NCBI GenBank assembly: GCA_022925895.1
Contig: JAKSYS010000140.1
Coordinates: 43,151 to 107,150, forward strand
Direction: 5' to 3'
DNA: 64,000 bases
DNA from: Fragilaria crotonensis
Taxonomy: Eukaryota > Bacillariophyta > Fragilariophyceae > Fragilariales > Fragilariaceae
Below the pieces are notes generated by a model that was not told the DNA's origin, made no database searches, and saw only the letters and a list, made by a program, of their open reading frames with translations. The position numbers and the translations under genes are program-made. Positions within the stretch are counted from its first letter, which is position 1; every line of letters begins with the position of its first letter. Below are positions 7,020 to 53,969 of this stretch, in pieces.

Positions 7020-7024
7020 AAAAA
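7020..7024 (-). terminator. Pol III T-run terminator of the permuted tRNA
   Basis: Five consecutive T on the minus strand start immediately after the outer BHB helix strand (GCTCC, 7029-7025). A run of four or more T is the standard RNA polymerase III stop. Its position defines the transcript end beyond the 5' half, as expected if the 5' half is transcribed last. Confidence 0.7.
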
Positions 7025-7030
7025 GGAGCG

Positions 7031-7118
7031 CCGTAGTCAGGCGCCTTGCCGTTGGGCCAACAGGTCGAAAGATGCAGTGCTGAAACCTGCCCGGGATTCG
7101 AACCCGGAATCTCCTGAT
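7031..7118 (-). tRNA. Circularly permuted tRNA-Arg(ACG): 3' half upstream of 5' half
   Basis: On the minus strand the order is 3' half (7118-7083), a 16-nt linker (7082-7067), then 5' half (7066-7031). Joining the 5' half to the 3' half gives a complete 72-nt cloverleaf plus no encoded CCA. Acceptor is GACCTGT/GCAGGTT (7 pairs, two of them G-U), D arm GCC/GGC, anticodon stem CCTGA/TCAGG (perfect), loop CTACGGA with anticodon ACG, variable loop AGATT, T arm CCGGG/CCCGG around TTCGAAT. The body matches eukaryotic tRNA-Arg (A box TGGCCCAACGG, B box GGTTCGAATCC). The break falls between positions 37 and 38, the canonical intron site. Flanks GGAGC-ACA-GCC (leader) and GGC-GCTCC (trailer) pair into a bulge-helix-bulge-like structure. 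No second 5' half lies upstream and no 3' half downstream, so this is not a tandem pair. Known permuted tRNAs (Cyanidioschyzon, prasinophytes) mature through a circular intermediate. Confidence 0.9.
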
Positions 7119-7129
7119 GGCTGTGCTCC
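7119..7129 (-). other. Leader strand of the BHB splice motif
   Basis: On the minus strand this reads GGAGC (7129-7125), ACA (7124-7122), GCC (7121-7119), directly before A38 of the 3' half. It pairs with GGC (7032-7030) and GCTCC (7029-7025) after the 5' half. The five-pair outer helix and three-pair inner helix next to the anticodon stem make a BHB-like target for tRNA-splicing endonuclease. The upstream bulge is three nt; the downstream one is four, so the motif is slightly relaxed. Confidence 0.75.
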
Positions 7130-7151
7130 ATGAAGTTGAAGGTGTCATCAA

Positions 7152-7159
7152 AATATATA
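7152..7159 (-). promoter_or_regulatory. TATA-like element upstream of permuted tRNA
   Basis: The minus strand carries TTATATATTTT centred about 35 nt before the start of the 3' half. Plant-type and algal tRNA genes often use such AT-rich upstream elements to position Pol III, which would be useful here because the internal A and B boxes are in reversed order. Confidence 0.4.
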
Positions 7160-12760: not shown

Positions 12761-15484
12761 CTACGGTTGTTGCGACGCAGCTTCCCTGGCGAAGAGATCA
12801 GCTGCAAATTCGCAACCAACCGGAATCACGCCCTTTGACCGCAGAGTCTTGACTAACTGATCCAATGGGACCAAGTCTTCAGTTCGCGCCTTCAAATCCT
12901 TCACTTTGCATTGGTTCGACTTCAATTCCTCCTCACCAACAATCACCATGAAGGGGATTTCGCGATCCAAAGCATTGGCAATCTCATACTTCAGCTTCGG
13001 GTTTTCTTGTTGACTAAACTCAGCGCTTATATTGGAATCCCACAGCATTCGGGTGATGCGCATCTTCTCCTTCAGCATATGGTCACCAGCCGAGGCCACA
13101 AGTACCTTGACATTTGGTTGCTTGATGGAGCCTTGTTCTTCTTCCAGTCGTTTCTCCATAAGCGTGAAAACACGCTCAATACCGACCGATACTCCCACGC
13201 ATGGTGTGATCTTGCCAGCTTCTTGGAACATGGAAACAAGGTTATCGTAACGTCCACCGCCACCAATACTGCCAACTTGAGTCGTTCCACTTAAGCAAAC
13301 GGCCTCGTAGATGACACCGGTATAGTAGTCTAATCCGCGAGCCAGGCTCAAGTCAAACGACATGAAGTTCAGTTTGCCCATGGCTTCCAAATACTCAAAC
13401 AGAATCTTCAAGTCCTCCATTGCATCAAGAGCACCCTTGTGCTTTCCAAACTTGTTGCTGTCCATCAATATCTTGTGCAGCGTCCAGGGTTCACCTTTCT
13501 GCAGGACAAAGGTTCCAATTTGGTCCGCAACCTCCGGTTTCAGTCCCTTGTCTTCCACCATCTCACGCTTGACTTCCTCCCAAGGTTCCTTGTCGAGCTT
13601 ATCAACGGCAGAACAAATGGTGCGGAATTTCTCGGCAGGGACGCCGCAGATATCCAAAATGGCATCGAGCAAACGTCGATGGTTCAGCTTGATTGCAAAA
13701 TCGCCAATGGGCAGGGCATCCAGAATATCGCATGCGACGCATAGACACTCGGAATCTGGCACCATGCGACCGTAGGTACCAGCAATATCAAAGTCGCACT
13801 GGTAAAATTCACGGTACCTGCCCTTGCTCAAAACGGGACGGTCTCGTCGATAGACCTTTCCAATGTGAAACCGCTTGATATTTCCCACCGAATTAAGTGC
13901 CAAGAATCGAGCAAACGGAACGGTCAAATCGTAGCGCAAGGCCAGCATTTCTCCTCCTTGATCTGCCAAGTCGTAAATTAGTTTCGAATCTTCTCCGTAC
14001 TTGCCCGTCAACGTGTCCTTTAGTTCAAACACGGGAGTATCAATCTCGACGGCACCGTGAGATTCAAAGACGCGACGAATGATGGAAAAGGCCTGCTGAC
14101 GGATCATCATTTGCTCGGGGAGGTAATCGCGCGTGCCCTTGGCAATCTTGGGCTTGCGCTGAACACCACCGGACAACAACTTGTCGACACATTGGTCTAC
14201 CTGGGCAATCGTCGTTTCGGACAAGTCGAAATTGGCGTCCTTGAGAATGGTACAGATTTTCTGTGTTCCTTCTCCAAACAACGACACTCCCTTGGTTTGT
14301 TTTGCAGCCTTCTTGGCCGCAGCCTTGGCATCCTTTTCAGCACGTTTCTTGAGGACCTTTTGTCTCTGAGCCTCCGACATGCCGGATAGGTCGTCGGCAC
14401 CAGGTGCTGCTTCGGCAGCTGCCGCGCGCGCCGCCTTTTCCGCTTCCTTCTCTAGCGCTTCTTGAGCCGCCTTTTCATTTTGAGTAGTCACAAATTCGAC
14501 ACCAGTCTTGGCTTCCTCATACAAGGACTGCTCCAAATCGATCAGTAATGTCCTCAAGGAGGACAATGGGGCAGTGGATGTTGTTGTTGGTAGTGGCTGA
14601 CCTCTGCGATCCACGCTGTTGACGTACAGGGTCGACATGGCACTAGCCGCCTGTGACAGGGCCAAGATCGCAACGGTATCGTCCAAAACGTCCGTCGCTG
14701 AAAACTCGAAACAATTAATCTCCAATTCCAATGTTTTGCAGGCGCTGTTGAGAGATTCCTGGGCTGGTCCTTGGTATTGAGGAATGTTTGAGATGGACAG
14801 TGGCACATTGTGGGAGTCAGTTCCAGGAGCAGCCGTCGTCGTACAGAATTGAGATCGGTTGAGAATGGCGCGGAGTGTCGCGGCTGTGGTAATAAGACCC
14901 CTGTGAGGACGATTGATATCGTAACGAACTTCAGCGTAGGCCGAAAGGTTTGCCATGGCCCGTTCAGCGGACAAGGCAGCAATGGGTGTGGTCACGTGCG
15001 CGAGGGATGCAGCTCGGACTGTGGTGAGGGCCCCAGTCGATAAGAAAATGGTGCGAGCCACAAGAGATGTGGGGAGTGACTGAATTGCAGAGGTAATTTC
15101 CGATTCCGATGAAAACAACGTGCAGAGCGCAGATTGGAAGTTTGCAGGATCGGAAGGTAGCACTAGCGACGTCGACTTCGCCTGGTTCGTGAATTCAATA
15201 AGCCCGGCAATTACGGCGAGTGACTTGATAATTCGCCCCTGAGATAGATTCAACGTCAAAAGCGTCAAGGCAGCAATTGTCTCTGGACTTGAAAGCGAAT
15301 CACTGTCCGAGAGAGTCAGGGCAGCCATGGCGGCGGAGAAACGGTCGACTGTTGGAGAGGCCACGACGGATAGATCTTCTACACTGGGGGCATGCAATTC
15401 TAGGATCCCATCGTAAAGTGCGACAGTTTGAAGTTCCTCCAAGGTGATACGACGCTCCTTTCCAATCAAAACGGATCGCACCAT
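12761..15484 (-). CDS. HARS: Histidyl-tRNA synthetase with long N-terminal extension
   Basis: One uninterrupted exon of 907 aa from MVRSVLIGK (13 more residues if an upstream Met is used). The C-terminal 450 aa are a complete class II HisRS: KGTRDYLPEQM (motif 1 region), FYQCDFDIAG (motif 2), LARGLDYYTGVIYEA (His A box), GGGRYDNLV, GVSVGIERVF (motif 3) and an anticodon-binding domain starting NVKVLVASAG. Before it lie about 50 residues of Lys/Ala-rich coiled coil. The first 340 residues are Ala/Ser/Leu-rich and helical; the opening ITLEELQTVALYDGILEL resembles the N-terminus of aromatic amino-acid lyase-like segments found on some eukaryotic HisRS (inference). No plastid presequence is visible, so a cytosolic enzyme is most likely. 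Confidence 0.95.
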   Translation of the reverse strand: MVRSVLIGKERRITLEELQTVALYDGILELHAPSVEDLSVVASPTVDRFSAAMAALTLSDSDSLSSPETIAALTLLTLNLSQGRIIKSLAVIAGLIEFTNQAKSTSLVLPSDPANFQSALCTLFSSESEITSAIQSLPTSLVARTIFLSTGALTTVRAASLAHVTTPIAALSAERAMANLSAYAEVRYDINRPHRGLITTAATLRAILNRSQFCTTTAAPGTDSHNVPLSISNIPQYQGPAQESLNSACKTLELEINCFEFSATDVLDDTVAILALSQAASAMSTLYVNSVDRRGQPLPTTTSTAPLSSLRTLLIDLEQSLYEEAKTGVEFVTTQNEKAAQEALEKEAEKAARAAAAEAAPGADDLSGMSEAQRQKVLKKRAEKDAKAAAKKAAKQTKGVSLFGEGTQKICTILKDANFDLSETTIAQVDQCVDKLLSGGVQRKPKIAKGTRDYLPEQMMIRQQAFSIIRRVFESHGAVEIDTPVFELKDTLTGKYGEDSKLIYDLADQGGEMLALRYDLTVPFARFLALNSVGNIKRFHIGKVYRRDRPVLSKGRYREFYQCDFDIAGTYGRMVPDSECLCVACDILDALPIGDFAIKLNHRRLLDAILDICGVPAEKFRTICSAVDKLDKEPWEEVKREMVEDKGLKPEVADQIGTFVLQKGEPWTLHKILMDSNKFGKHKGALDAMEDLKILFEYLEAMGKLNFMSFDLSLARGLDYYTGVIYEAVCLSGTTQVGSIGGGGRYDNLVSMFQEAGKITPCVGVSVGIERVFTLMEKRLEEEQGSIKQPNVKVLVASAGDHMLKEKMRITRMLWDSNISAEFSQQENPKLKYEIANALDREIPFMVIVGEEELKSNQCKVKDLKARTEDLVPLDQLVKTLRSKGVIPVGCEFAADLFAREAASQQP

Positions 15485-16177
15485 GTTGCTTGTGTGCGTT
15501 TCTTGATTGTTGCTGTCGAACAACTGGATGACAGCCTAGATCAGCCCAGTACAGTCAAGGCAAGGGACAGACGCTTGTGTCCTTGTTGGCGCAATGAATA
15601 ACAGCTACAATTGTTCCTGTACGAGATCACTAGATCAACCGACCACTCCTAGCTTCTAGCTAGAATGCCTCGACCTAGAATAACTGTTGGTGTGGTGATG
15701 ACACTAGAGAGAGGACGCAATGAGCTCTGGCGGATGCGTAAATGTCGGATGTGTGGCTCTCACTTGATCGTTGATGATGATTTTGGGTTTCGGGTTTCGG
15801 GTTTAGGGTTTCACGGACAACAGCACTCACAGACACATCTCCGATGTCCATACAATAGCACAGTAAACAGTACTACAGTACGTCAGTAACGAGGCGATGA
15901 AATTGAACGTTCGCAGGTGGAACAACAGTTTCGGTCGTGAGGAACAATTGAAAGTGGCATGAAAGCGTACATCAGCGTGAAACATAACCGTAATTTACCG
16001 GAAACGCCACGAGAATTCTCATTTTTTGATGGCTCACAATTTGGATTGACTTGACACCCGCACGACCACAACCAGCAAGTGTCCGAATGAGAACAAGCAT
16101 GCTTCGCAAAGATCTCAATCAATGGAACACACAAAACTCATCAACAAAGCTTCAACGTCAAACAACCAACTATCACA
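15485..16177. other. Intergenic with telomere-like repeats
   Basis: No supported gene. The only structured item is the short TTTAGGG-like array listed separately; a few GTAC motifs lie at 15865-15885. Confidence 0.5.
15781..15812 (+). repeat. Interstitial telomere-like heptamer array
   Basis: Four and a half tandem units TTTTGGG, TTTCGGG, TTTCGGG, TTTAGGG, TTTC. They resemble the Arabidopsis-type telomere unit TTTAGGG, with one exact copy. Confidence 0.6.
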
Positions 16178-51228: not shown

Positions 51229-53969
51229 TTAATCAGTATCCATGGGCTCCGATTTCTCTTCTTCGGTATTCACTTCCGTCGCTTCAGCTTCCATTGGCTC
51301 GCCATCGGCCTTGGGTTCTGGAACCTCAGGAGCTTTCTCTTCCACCTTCTTTTCTTCCTTCTTTGGCTTCGGTGCTGGCTTGTGCCTGATAGGGCTGCAG
51401 GTGTCTGTCAGCTCCTTAGCCTTCGCATTGATCTCGGCAACAGTCACAACGGGATTGGTATTGACAGAAAGAGCACCTTGTTTGTCCAGAATGTCATACA
51501 TCCAGCTGGAAACTTCATCACATTTTGCATGACATTTTTGTCTTTCCTCATCTGTGATGTGTGCATACTCATCTTTTCCTACAGACTCATTCAGCCACTG
51601 AGTGTACATTTCGACCTTGCGTTGCAGGGTGGACACGGCACCGGGACGAGCGTTGGTTTCGAATTCACGCTTCTCGATAGGATCACCAATGCGCTTCAGA
51701 TCGCCGAGTTTCTCAGCATAGACTGACTTTGTGGCGTCAAACCCATCTTCGTAAAGCCAATTTTCTGTGCCCTCAAGTGCAGCTGAAAATGCAGACTTTT
51801 CTTCTTCTGTGGCATACGGGGCAAGCCCGGAGTCGGAGATGATTTTGTCTCGCATGTTGTAGATGTAAGACTCAAGTTCATTCCTCTGATCTGAGGTCTC
51901 CCTCACCACGCGGTCAACATTGGACATGGCGACCTCGGCCTCAAAGGCCTTCTCGATTTCCGTCTTCGTCCAGTCTAAAGGACGATAAGTGGTGAACTCA
52001 AGTAAAGTCTTCTTGATCTTCTTCTTCTTTTCCTCACCCTCCTTCGCTTCGGTGTCTGGCAATACTTCCTCATCTTCGATTTCCTCTACCATCTGCCCAG
52101 AGCTGAGGGTGATGATTCCGTGAATGTCTTGCTTAACATTCACGCGAACCTTCTTCAAATCACCTGGGGGAGCGACGATTTTGAAAGTACATATATCCTT
52201 GCTCACGCCGTCAGGATGACCAAACCCAGTTGCACTTGCGTCGTACGAGCACTTGACATCGAAGGCACCTGCACGCTTCAACGTCACGCGTCGTACAATA
52301 GGAAAGTTGAGACCCCTATCAAACATGACGACCGAGTTAGTTGGAACCCCATCCTCGCCAACAGCTTCATCTTCGTCCCAGGAAAGCTTGATTGGATACG
52401 GCTGAGACTCCTGAATCTCATAAGGCAACACCTTGAAACGAGGAGAAAGGATTGCACTCTGAAGGGCTGCACCGCGAGCAACAGCTTCATCAGCGTTCAT
52501 GGTCGTTGACAGGGTAGCGCCACCAAGGAACTCGCTTATCGCTCTCTTCACACATCCTACACGTGTGCTCCCACCGACAATCTCAATGCTGGCAAGATCA
52601 GCCGCAGTGACCTTGGCTTCTTCTAGGGCACGGGAGATGGGTTTGGAGAGCCGAGCCAGAAGCGATGCGACAAGAGACTCGTATTCTACGGCCGTGAGGG
52701 TGATGTTGAAGTCAAAGTCGTCCATCAGGCACTCAAGACTAATACGGGCCTCCTTGACTCCCTGGGGGCTCAAAGTTTTCTTAGCTTTCTCCGCCGCAGC
52801 GAGCAGCTTTATGCGCACCTTTGGCAGGTCCATGGGTTTACCGCTGAGCTTTCCCTTGAATTTAGCTTCAAAATTGTCTGCGATCCATTGGGCGATGGCT
52901 TCATCGATATCGCGGCCTCCAAGGTTCTCATCAAAGAAGCATGATTTGACGACAAGCTTTCCAGTTTCAAAGGCAACAACAGAAACTGTGTAACATGTGG
53001 CACCCATGTCAATGAATAGGATGTTGGTTGGATGTTCCTTGCTGAACTCCTTTCTGAGATCCTTGAAGATGCCGAACGACAAAGCGACCGCTGTGTGTTC
53101 ATGCATGAGCCTCTGCACGCCGGTGATTCCAGTGATTTCACAAGCTGCGAGCAACGCCCTTCGTTGGGCATCGTCGTAGTAACTTGGAATTGCAATAACC
53201 CAGTCCTGAGGGAAAAGATCTTTCACATCAGCCCCGTTCGAGGCAGTAGCAGCCTTGGCGGCAGCAATGCCTCCAAGATGCTTGAGCATCATTCCCGCAA
53301 CTGCTTCCACAGGCAAGATAGTTTCTTCTCCTCCAGAGGTGACCTTTACTCCAACCGAGTCAGGTCCTCCAGAAGCATGCTTGATCGGTACACAGGTGAA
53401 CGGGCACTTCTTCATCTCGGCTTGAGCCCTTGGATCATCGAAAGCCAACCCAATGAGGCGTTTGAAGTTGAAAATCGTGTTCTTGAAATTCGACGCGGCC
53501 GTTGTGGCAGCTACTTCTCCCATGGACCGGGATTGATCGAAGCCAACCATACCTCTGTGGAAGGTTTAGCGGAGAGTTGACGAAATAAGGTGAGAAGTTT
53601 TGTCCGCAGTGTACACATATTGGCAAAAGCATCGTTGTCAAGTCGGCGTTTACATCGACCATCGCCCGCAATCAAAAGCAAGCATGTGCTTGGACGGAGT
53701 AACACGCAACACGCAATGCACGCAAGTACTCACAAGTACAGGGTACTGGCCTTCTCAGATTGGTCCTCACGTAGAAAACGTACTGGCCGTTGCATGTTCA
53801 TCGCACTGTCGACTGTCGATTCGCGAGGCAAAGAAACGACAAGCAAAGATTTTGTTGACTTACGGATTCAGGCGATTAGAGTTACCATTGAGGATTACAT
53901 CGACACCACCGCGTCCGGCGGAAGCAATTACAGTGTTCACGACACCGAAGTCAATTCAACAACACTCAT
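51229..53969 (-). CDS. HSP110/HSPA4-type Hsp70-superfamily chaperone (one frame break)
   Basis: Exons 53969-53864 and 53554-51229 (GTAAGT donor, CAG acceptor). Exon 1 holds the ATPase start (MSVV then a shifted frame reading DFGVVNTVIASAGRGG), with one G missing at about 53957; 2432 nt plus one gives 811 codons. Exon 2 continues GMVGFDQSRSMGEVA, FIDMGATCYTVSVVAFE (phosphate 2), VGGSTRVGCVKRAISEFLG (adenosine site) and EAVARGAALQSA. The substrate domain has the long acidic loop (EEIEDEEVLPDTEAKEGEE) and helical lid of HSP110, and ends in an acidic tail (NTEEEKSEPMDTD) without an ER retention signal. Cytosolic nucleotide-exchange factor for Hsp70 and holdase. Confidence 0.93.

Follow-up and report, generated by a model that had tools for sequence, protein, structure and literature searches.

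A total of 34 permuted tRNA genes were tabulated in 2014 from six unicellular algae (red, green and one nucleomorph) and one archaeon (Soma 2014, PMC3978253). According to the available portion of that review, tRNA-Cys(GCA) is permuted at position 37/38 in Ostreococcus lucimarinus, O. tauri and Micromonas pusilla, and in O. lucimarinus the Cys 5' half is followed downstream by an additional 5' half. An origin of permuted tRNA genes by tandem duplication is described in the same portion (PMC3978253). The anticodon-intron (A-I) pair is named as a eukaryotic feature in the available parts of two articles (PMC4090602; PMC3978253). The words diatom, stramenopile and heterokont are absent from the available text of the 2014 review (PMC3978253), to which this comparison is confined.

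We analysed a 64,000-nt stretch of Fragilaria crotonensis DNA (the window; positions 43151-107150 of contig C48) together with the 62.1-Mb assembly to which it belongs (881 contigs). We assign a probability of about 0.92 to the reading that one locus on the minus strand of the window is a working circularly permuted nuclear tRNA gene of type II, with its break at 37/38; judged by its sequence, the gene is real and very probably functional. The original prediction of a 3' half, a 16-nt linker and a 5' half that rejoin into a 72-nt tRNA-Arg(ACG) was confirmed by re-cutting the sequence by coordinates and by ARAGORN. Read along the minus strand (window 7118-7031), the locus consists of a 36-nt 3' half (tRNA positions 38-73; 7083-7118) with the B box GGTTCGAATCC, the linker (7067-7082), and a 36-nt 5' half (tRNA positions 1-37; 7031-7066) with the A box TGGCCCAACGG and the anticodon ACG. 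Both halves were recovered by direct reading, by ARAGORN and by a held-out model. Rejoined at 37/38, they form a cloverleaf that ARAGORN draws with seven acceptor pairs (two of them G-U), five anticodon pairs, five T pairs and three D pairs; the anticodon loop, CTACGG|A, has 7 nt once joined. The 3' half thus lies 5' of the 5' half and both make a full cloverleaf, which is the type II arrangement. CCA is not encoded, the eukaryotic form, as CAGCACTG comes right after the 3' half.

The flanks of the two halves, all on the minus strand, contain further elements. Upstream lies TATATTTTGAT (7147-7157), an 11-mer that occurs once in the window and is presumably a TATA-like promoter. The 3' end of the leader (7119-7129) reads GGAGC (7129-7125) followed by ACAGCC, and its bases A-4 and G-3 lie opposite U33 and C32. 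The trailer CGCTCC (7025-7030) includes GCTCC (7029-7025), which pairs with the leader GGAGC. The T5 run that had been proposed as a stop is present at 7024-7020, starting 7 nt past the 5' half, and presumably serves as an RNA polymerase III terminator. In its linear form, the window yielded no tRNA by ARAGORN and no Rfam match reaching the gathering score, which is expected because the gene would be permuted.

The A and B boxes had also been described as lying in reversed order, and a B box followed by an A box 18-48 nt away was indeed found once in the window and in none of 100 shuffles. Our covariance model, R1, is based on 14 nuclear tRNAs of the same genome that were permuted in silico at 37/38 and provided with N linkers, with Arg(ACG) omitted; it covers the 37/38 break only. 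At E values up to 10, R1 found two places only in 88,954 bases: the window gene (57.3 bits, E 1.1e-16) and a gene on contig C772 (52.5 bits, E 4.5e-15). Applied to 97 sources (326,876 bases; the window plus 96 of 114 loci), it listed 147 matches. R1 alone is unspecific: tandem normal tRNA-Trp genes scored 59 and 58.8 bits, exceeding the window gene, and the lower-scoring matches included many single normal tRNAs. The R1 score is insufficient for telling a permuted gene from tandem tRNAs, and the discriminator used was the absence of outer halves. A tandem tRNA-Trp pair is found on each of C256 and C560 (L029 and L030), in near-identical stretches that are perhaps two haplotypes; scoring as permuted in R1, these tandems make a useful false-positive control.

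The B box GGTTCGAATCC had 95 matches in the assembly, compared with six for a reversed control, and 78 of the 95 lay outside the mitochondrial contig C880 and the plastid genome C881. Reading 57 of these 78 sites gave eight normal tRNAs, the window gene, and 48 sites that were neither a tRNA by ARAGORN nor permuted by a simple test. A 58th site is the C772 gene, bringing the number accounted for to 58 of 78. The pattern of the permuted Arg gene had no matches in collections of viral contigs and genome contigs, and that of a permuted Cys gene described below had none in the viral contig collection.

When the joined 72-mer was compared with the 62.1-Mb assembly by BLAST, four hits were obtained, corresponding to the two halves at each of C48 and C772. 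Both 36-nt halves are 100% identical between these loci and stand in permuted order at both, with a linker of 14 nt on C772 versus 16 nt in the window. C772:1-10000 and the window share a single blastn match, of 106 columns (93.4% identical), and the flanks of the two genes have none. In the window the leader/trailer helix consists of GGAGC/GCTCC, and on C772 of GAGGAAC/GTTCCTC; among the five shared pairs, one G-C is replaced by A-U on both sides in C772, a compensatory change, and the leader end CAGCC is conserved. The open reading frames on C772 include those of an amino acid permease, a tRNA pseudouridine synthase and an S41 peptidase, among others, so this is a gene-bearing contig. As judged from these comparisons, the C772 locus is a second, constrained copy.

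Two further genes of the same build were found on other contigs. As the tRNA-like domain of the bacterial Y RNA YrlA has the same permuted order, a weak YrlA match at the Arg locus led to the use of YrlA as a genome probe. At E values up to 10 it gave four matches in the genome, none above the cut-off and two outside the plastid, on C118 (33.2 bits) and C726 (26.3 bits). Taken alone, matches this weak carry little meaning, since this search gives below-cut-off matches in 13 of 14 control genomes; the probe is also not exhaustive, because the two Arg genes are missing from its matches. R1 scored the two loci at 67.3 bits (C118) and 57.8 bits (C726), and ARAGORN recognised their joined halves as tRNA-Cys(GCA) and tRNA-Ile(UAU), respectively. 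As they stand, none of the four permuted loci is called as a tRNA by ARAGORN. The acceptor stem of the joined Ile tRNA contains one T-T mismatch, and the ARAGORN drawing of this tRNA extends one base into the added padding at each end. The discriminator base is U73 in Cys and A73 in Ile, the usual ones for these two tRNAs. The linkers of the four genes (window, C772, Cys and Ile) measure 16, 14, 10 and 7 nt, all inside the 1-74 bp range of the 2014 table. Considering the layout of these loci, the genome holds at least four permuted tRNA genes (two Arg, one Cys and one Ile).

BLAST of the joined Cys and Ile tRNAs against the genome returned seven hits, which are the halves in permuted order plus three additional Cys 5' halves on C118; normal-order Cys(GCA) or Ile(UAU) was not found in this search. 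One extra Cys 5' half (C118:50290-50321, within L112, C118:50020-50360) is 100% identical over 32 nt and has an altered anticodon loop, and the other two (C118:51210-51245, 94%, and 51298-51333, 92%) lie within L114 (C118:51070-51430). BLAST found no 3' half beside them. On this pattern, they are probably debris of a tandem duplication of the permuted unit.

The host of these genes had been described as a diatom, which agrees with the gene content of the assembly. Silicon transporters had 19 genome matches (best 646 bits), compared with one of 14 control genomes matching, below the cut-off; the host is therefore a diatom. The two best PDB matches of plastid psbB and psbD, which we take to be diatom photosystem II entries, support the same assignment. 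Two multi-domain silicon transporter frames were seen, one with three domains (C97:29749-33762, 1456 aa) and one with two (C771:21664-24330, 1008 aa). On the mitochondrial contig, C880:69508-75687 contains six tRNA matches, all of 74.3 bits and about 1.0-1.4 kb apart, which looks like a tandem array of a single gene.

We searched the assembly for an Arg(ACG) gene in normal order, a finding that would count against a permuted gene. BLAST of the joined 72-mer against the whole assembly found no such copy, its hits being confined to two loci that are both permuted. The normal-order anticodon-arm core TGACTACGGATCA occurs three times in the genome, and neither ARAGORN nor Rfam recognises a tRNA at any of these places. 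The Rfam tRNA model scored 63 of 2258 candidates in the genome; 28 of these 63 listed matches lie outside the two organelle contigs, and these nuclear tRNAs include Arg(TCT), Arg(TCG) and Arg(CCT) and do not include Arg(ACG). None of the four permuted genes is among the 63 matches listed. Because the listing covers 63 scored of 2258 candidates, a divergent normal-order Arg(ACG) may exist elsewhere in the genome. In six mechanically listed open reading frames of the window, CGT and CGC make up 78 of 192 Arg codons, and a tRNA reading CGT/CGC is therefore needed. One frame of the window (12761-15523, minus strand) joins an aromatic lyase-like stretch to a histidyl-tRNA synthetase core and an anticodon-binding domain; a gene fusion and partial domains of one synthetase protein are both possible.

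The signals around the permuted genes were compared with those of normal nuclear tRNA genes. A run of at least four T started 3-11 nt past the matched body of the last tRNA in all 26 normal nuclear tRNA loci fetched; the L040 match is partial, which inflates its distance, and L029 and L030 are represented by the second of their two tRNAs only. In the four permuted genes, runs of T4-T5 start at +7, +9, +11 and +9 after the 5' half, and the intervening sequence contains no T4. At 10-50 nt upstream, the A+T content of the four permuted genes (0.65-0.70) is like that of the normal loci (0.67) and higher than that of the window (0.52), so that AT-rich or TATA-like sequence upstream is combined with a T-run downstream. 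TTTGAT occurs at 10-50 nt upstream in seven of the 26 normal nuclear loci (0.44 expected). In the window gene, the TTTGAT of TATATTTTGAT ends 28 nt before the 3' half, and the same 11-mer is also found upstream of two normal tRNA-Phe genes (L017 and L018); TTTGAT was not found within 50 nt upstream of the other three permuted genes. An element resembling TATATTTTGAT or TATTTTGAT is shared by several nuclear tRNA loci (L017, L018, L039 and window 7147-7157), where it lies 20-28 nt upstream of the gene, and may be an upstream Pol III promoter motif of diatoms.

The ends of the putative precursors were examined for a BHB-like (hBH) junction with an A-I pair. We take leader base -3 to be the partner of base 32 in the eukaryotic A-I pair (32:-3). 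Base 32 can pair with leader base -3 in all four permuted genes (C:G, C:G, U:A and C:G for the window, C772, Cys and Ile), as can U33 with A-4. The leader/trailer helix has 5 bp in the window gene, 7 bp on C772, 4-5 bp in Cys, where it is weak (cofold -7.4 kcal/mol), and 5 bp in Ile. The junction is thus present by complementarity and not by energy. A strict 4-bp central helix does not form in either Arg copy, the pairs being at 32 and 33 only. The predicted minimum lies below the drawn structure by 8.9 kcal/mol (window) and 7.3 kcal/mol (C772), the two A-I pairs cost 2.6 kcal/mol in each Arg precursor, and the fold z-scores of these precursors are only -1.27 and -0.74. In the window precursor, the predicted minimum retains the T arm, the anticodon stem and the leader/trailer helix and adds a GCC/GGC helix; in the C772 precursor it retains the T arm and the leader/trailer helix and loses the anticodon stem.

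Leader/trailer pairing had originally been proposed both for GGAGC/GCTCC and for GCC/GGC next to the break. The former stands and covaries in C772, but the latter was set aside. As a central helix, GCC/GGC is possible in both Arg copies (with a G-U pair in C772) and no counterpart was seen in Cys or Ile. It was set aside because the cut after G37 would lie buried within it and because, unlike the 32:-3 pair with its occurrence in four of four genes, it has no equivalent in Cys and Ile.

Taken together, the arrangement suggests the following route to a mature tRNA. RNA polymerase III, guided by the upstream TATA-like element, would transcribe leader, 3' half, linker, 5' half and trailer and would stop at T5. 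In the precursor cloverleaf, the linker would cap the acceptor stem and the open ends would lie in the anticodon loop. Through pairing of the leader with the trailer and of base 32 with leader base -3, these ends would resemble an intron in a conventional pre-tRNA. The tRNA-splicing endonuclease could then cleave at C|A38 and G37|C, and a ligase would connect 37 to 38, giving a circle. RNase P and tRNase Z would excise the linker, after which CCA would be added and the tRNA charged. Two genome matches to the tRNA-splicing endonuclease family (PF01974, tRNA_int_endo) were found, on C870 and C68. An RNA ligase gene was not found with the two models used: RtcB had no genome matches, and the PF09511 search gave no match even in its control genomes and is therefore uninformative.

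Four other explanations of the Arg locus were weighed and rejected. Two ordinary tRNA genes in tandem, where the 3' half of one is followed by the 5' half of the next, could imitate the permuted order, as could a decayed tandem of this kind, and the tRNA-Trp tandems do outscore the window gene in the permuted model. The outer halves of such a tandem are, however, absent. Within 500 nt upstream of the window gene, ungapped matching to the 5' half reaches at best 17 of 36, and within 500 nt downstream that to the 3' half reaches at best 19 of 36 (shuffles: mean 17.1, maximum 21 in both cases). The corresponding values for C772 are 18 and 16 of 36 (500 nt each side), and an ungapped comparison of about 130 nt on each side of the Cys and Ile genes found no outer halves there. 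ARAGORN also called no tRNA in either the window or L013. We consider this arrangement extremely improbable today, while tandem duplication as the origin of permuted genes is possible. A permuted pseudogene, dead and out of use, is very unlikely on the evidence of the C772 copy: the Arg halves are identical at two loci despite different flanks and linkers, and the compensatory change keeps leader and trailer paired. The terminator and the splice geometry are moreover intact, and a normal gene was not found by BLAST of the assembly. Debris of this kind does exist in the genome, as the degenerate Cys 5'-half copies on C118 illustrate.

The best Rfam match at the Arg locus is YrlA (RF02553; 20.9 bits, E 0.074 over 601 bases), which would suit a tRNA-mimicking, Y-like RNA of the same permuted order. 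This score is far under the gathering score of 69, and the alignment is that of the tRNA-like domain, with part of the outer stem omitted. Ro60/TROVE (PF05731) had neither matches nor candidates in the genome (one of 14 control genomes matches), and the Arg locus has a complete anticodon arm, anticodon included, so that a Y-like RNA is scarcely credible here. It is just as hard to believe that a misassembly swapped the halves, given the same order at four loci on four contigs with differing flanks, each with pairable leader and trailer pieces. A working permuted tRNA gene is thus the reading that we retain.

The presence of four permuted genes in a diatom would extend the trait to another major algal lineage and makes repeated origin by tandem duplication versus passage between algae testable. 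In diatom genomes, tRNAs that are needed can escape standard annotation, because ARAGORN calls none of the four loci and none is among the matches listed by the Rfam tRNA model. A bolder proposal is that the only cytosolic tRNA-Cys, Arg(ACG) and Ile(UAU) of this diatom are made solely via circular RNA, and that the permuted Cys(GCA) gene with its spare 5' halves is a prasinophyte gene acquired by green-algal transfer and not a reinvention; we regard this as unlikely.

As far as could be checked, the locus is of a known kind (type II) in a lineage that is new relative to the table of the 2014 review. The closest counterparts in the available portion of that review are the type II genes of the prasinophytes Ostreococcus and Micromonas and of the Bigelowiella nucleomorph, which share the 37/38 break, the hBH junction and a short intervening sequence with the genes reported here, some of them also having an AT-rich region upstream (PMC3978253). 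They differ in that the host here is a diatom and that Arg(ACG) and Ile(UAU) are missing from the 2014 table (PMC3978253). Three of the prasinophytes have a Cys(GCA) gene permuted at 37/38, as does this diatom, and the spare 5' half of O. lucimarinus resembles those on C118 (PMC3978253). The likeness in Cys layout could be either a striking parallel, which would fit a tandem-duplication origin, or a sign of common descent.

The genes of the red alga C. merolae, as described in the same portion, are similar in the TATA-like element upstream of most of them, the T-run past the 5' half, the absence of an encoded CCA and an intervening sequence of 7-74 nt (PMC3978253). Their breaks lie at 20/21, 37/38, 50/51 and 59/60, whereas the four genes found here are broken at 37/38, the sole break modelled. 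The permuted tRNAs of the archaeon Thermofilum pendens, in the available part of their description, likewise place the 3' half before the 5' half; unlike the genes reported here, they have a break at 59/60, an encoded CCA and an additional canonical intron (Chan 2011, PMC3218864). In its Rfam alignment, the tRNA-like domain of YrlA has the permuted order of the Arg locus as well, which differs from that RNA in its score and in the Ro60 search of its genome.
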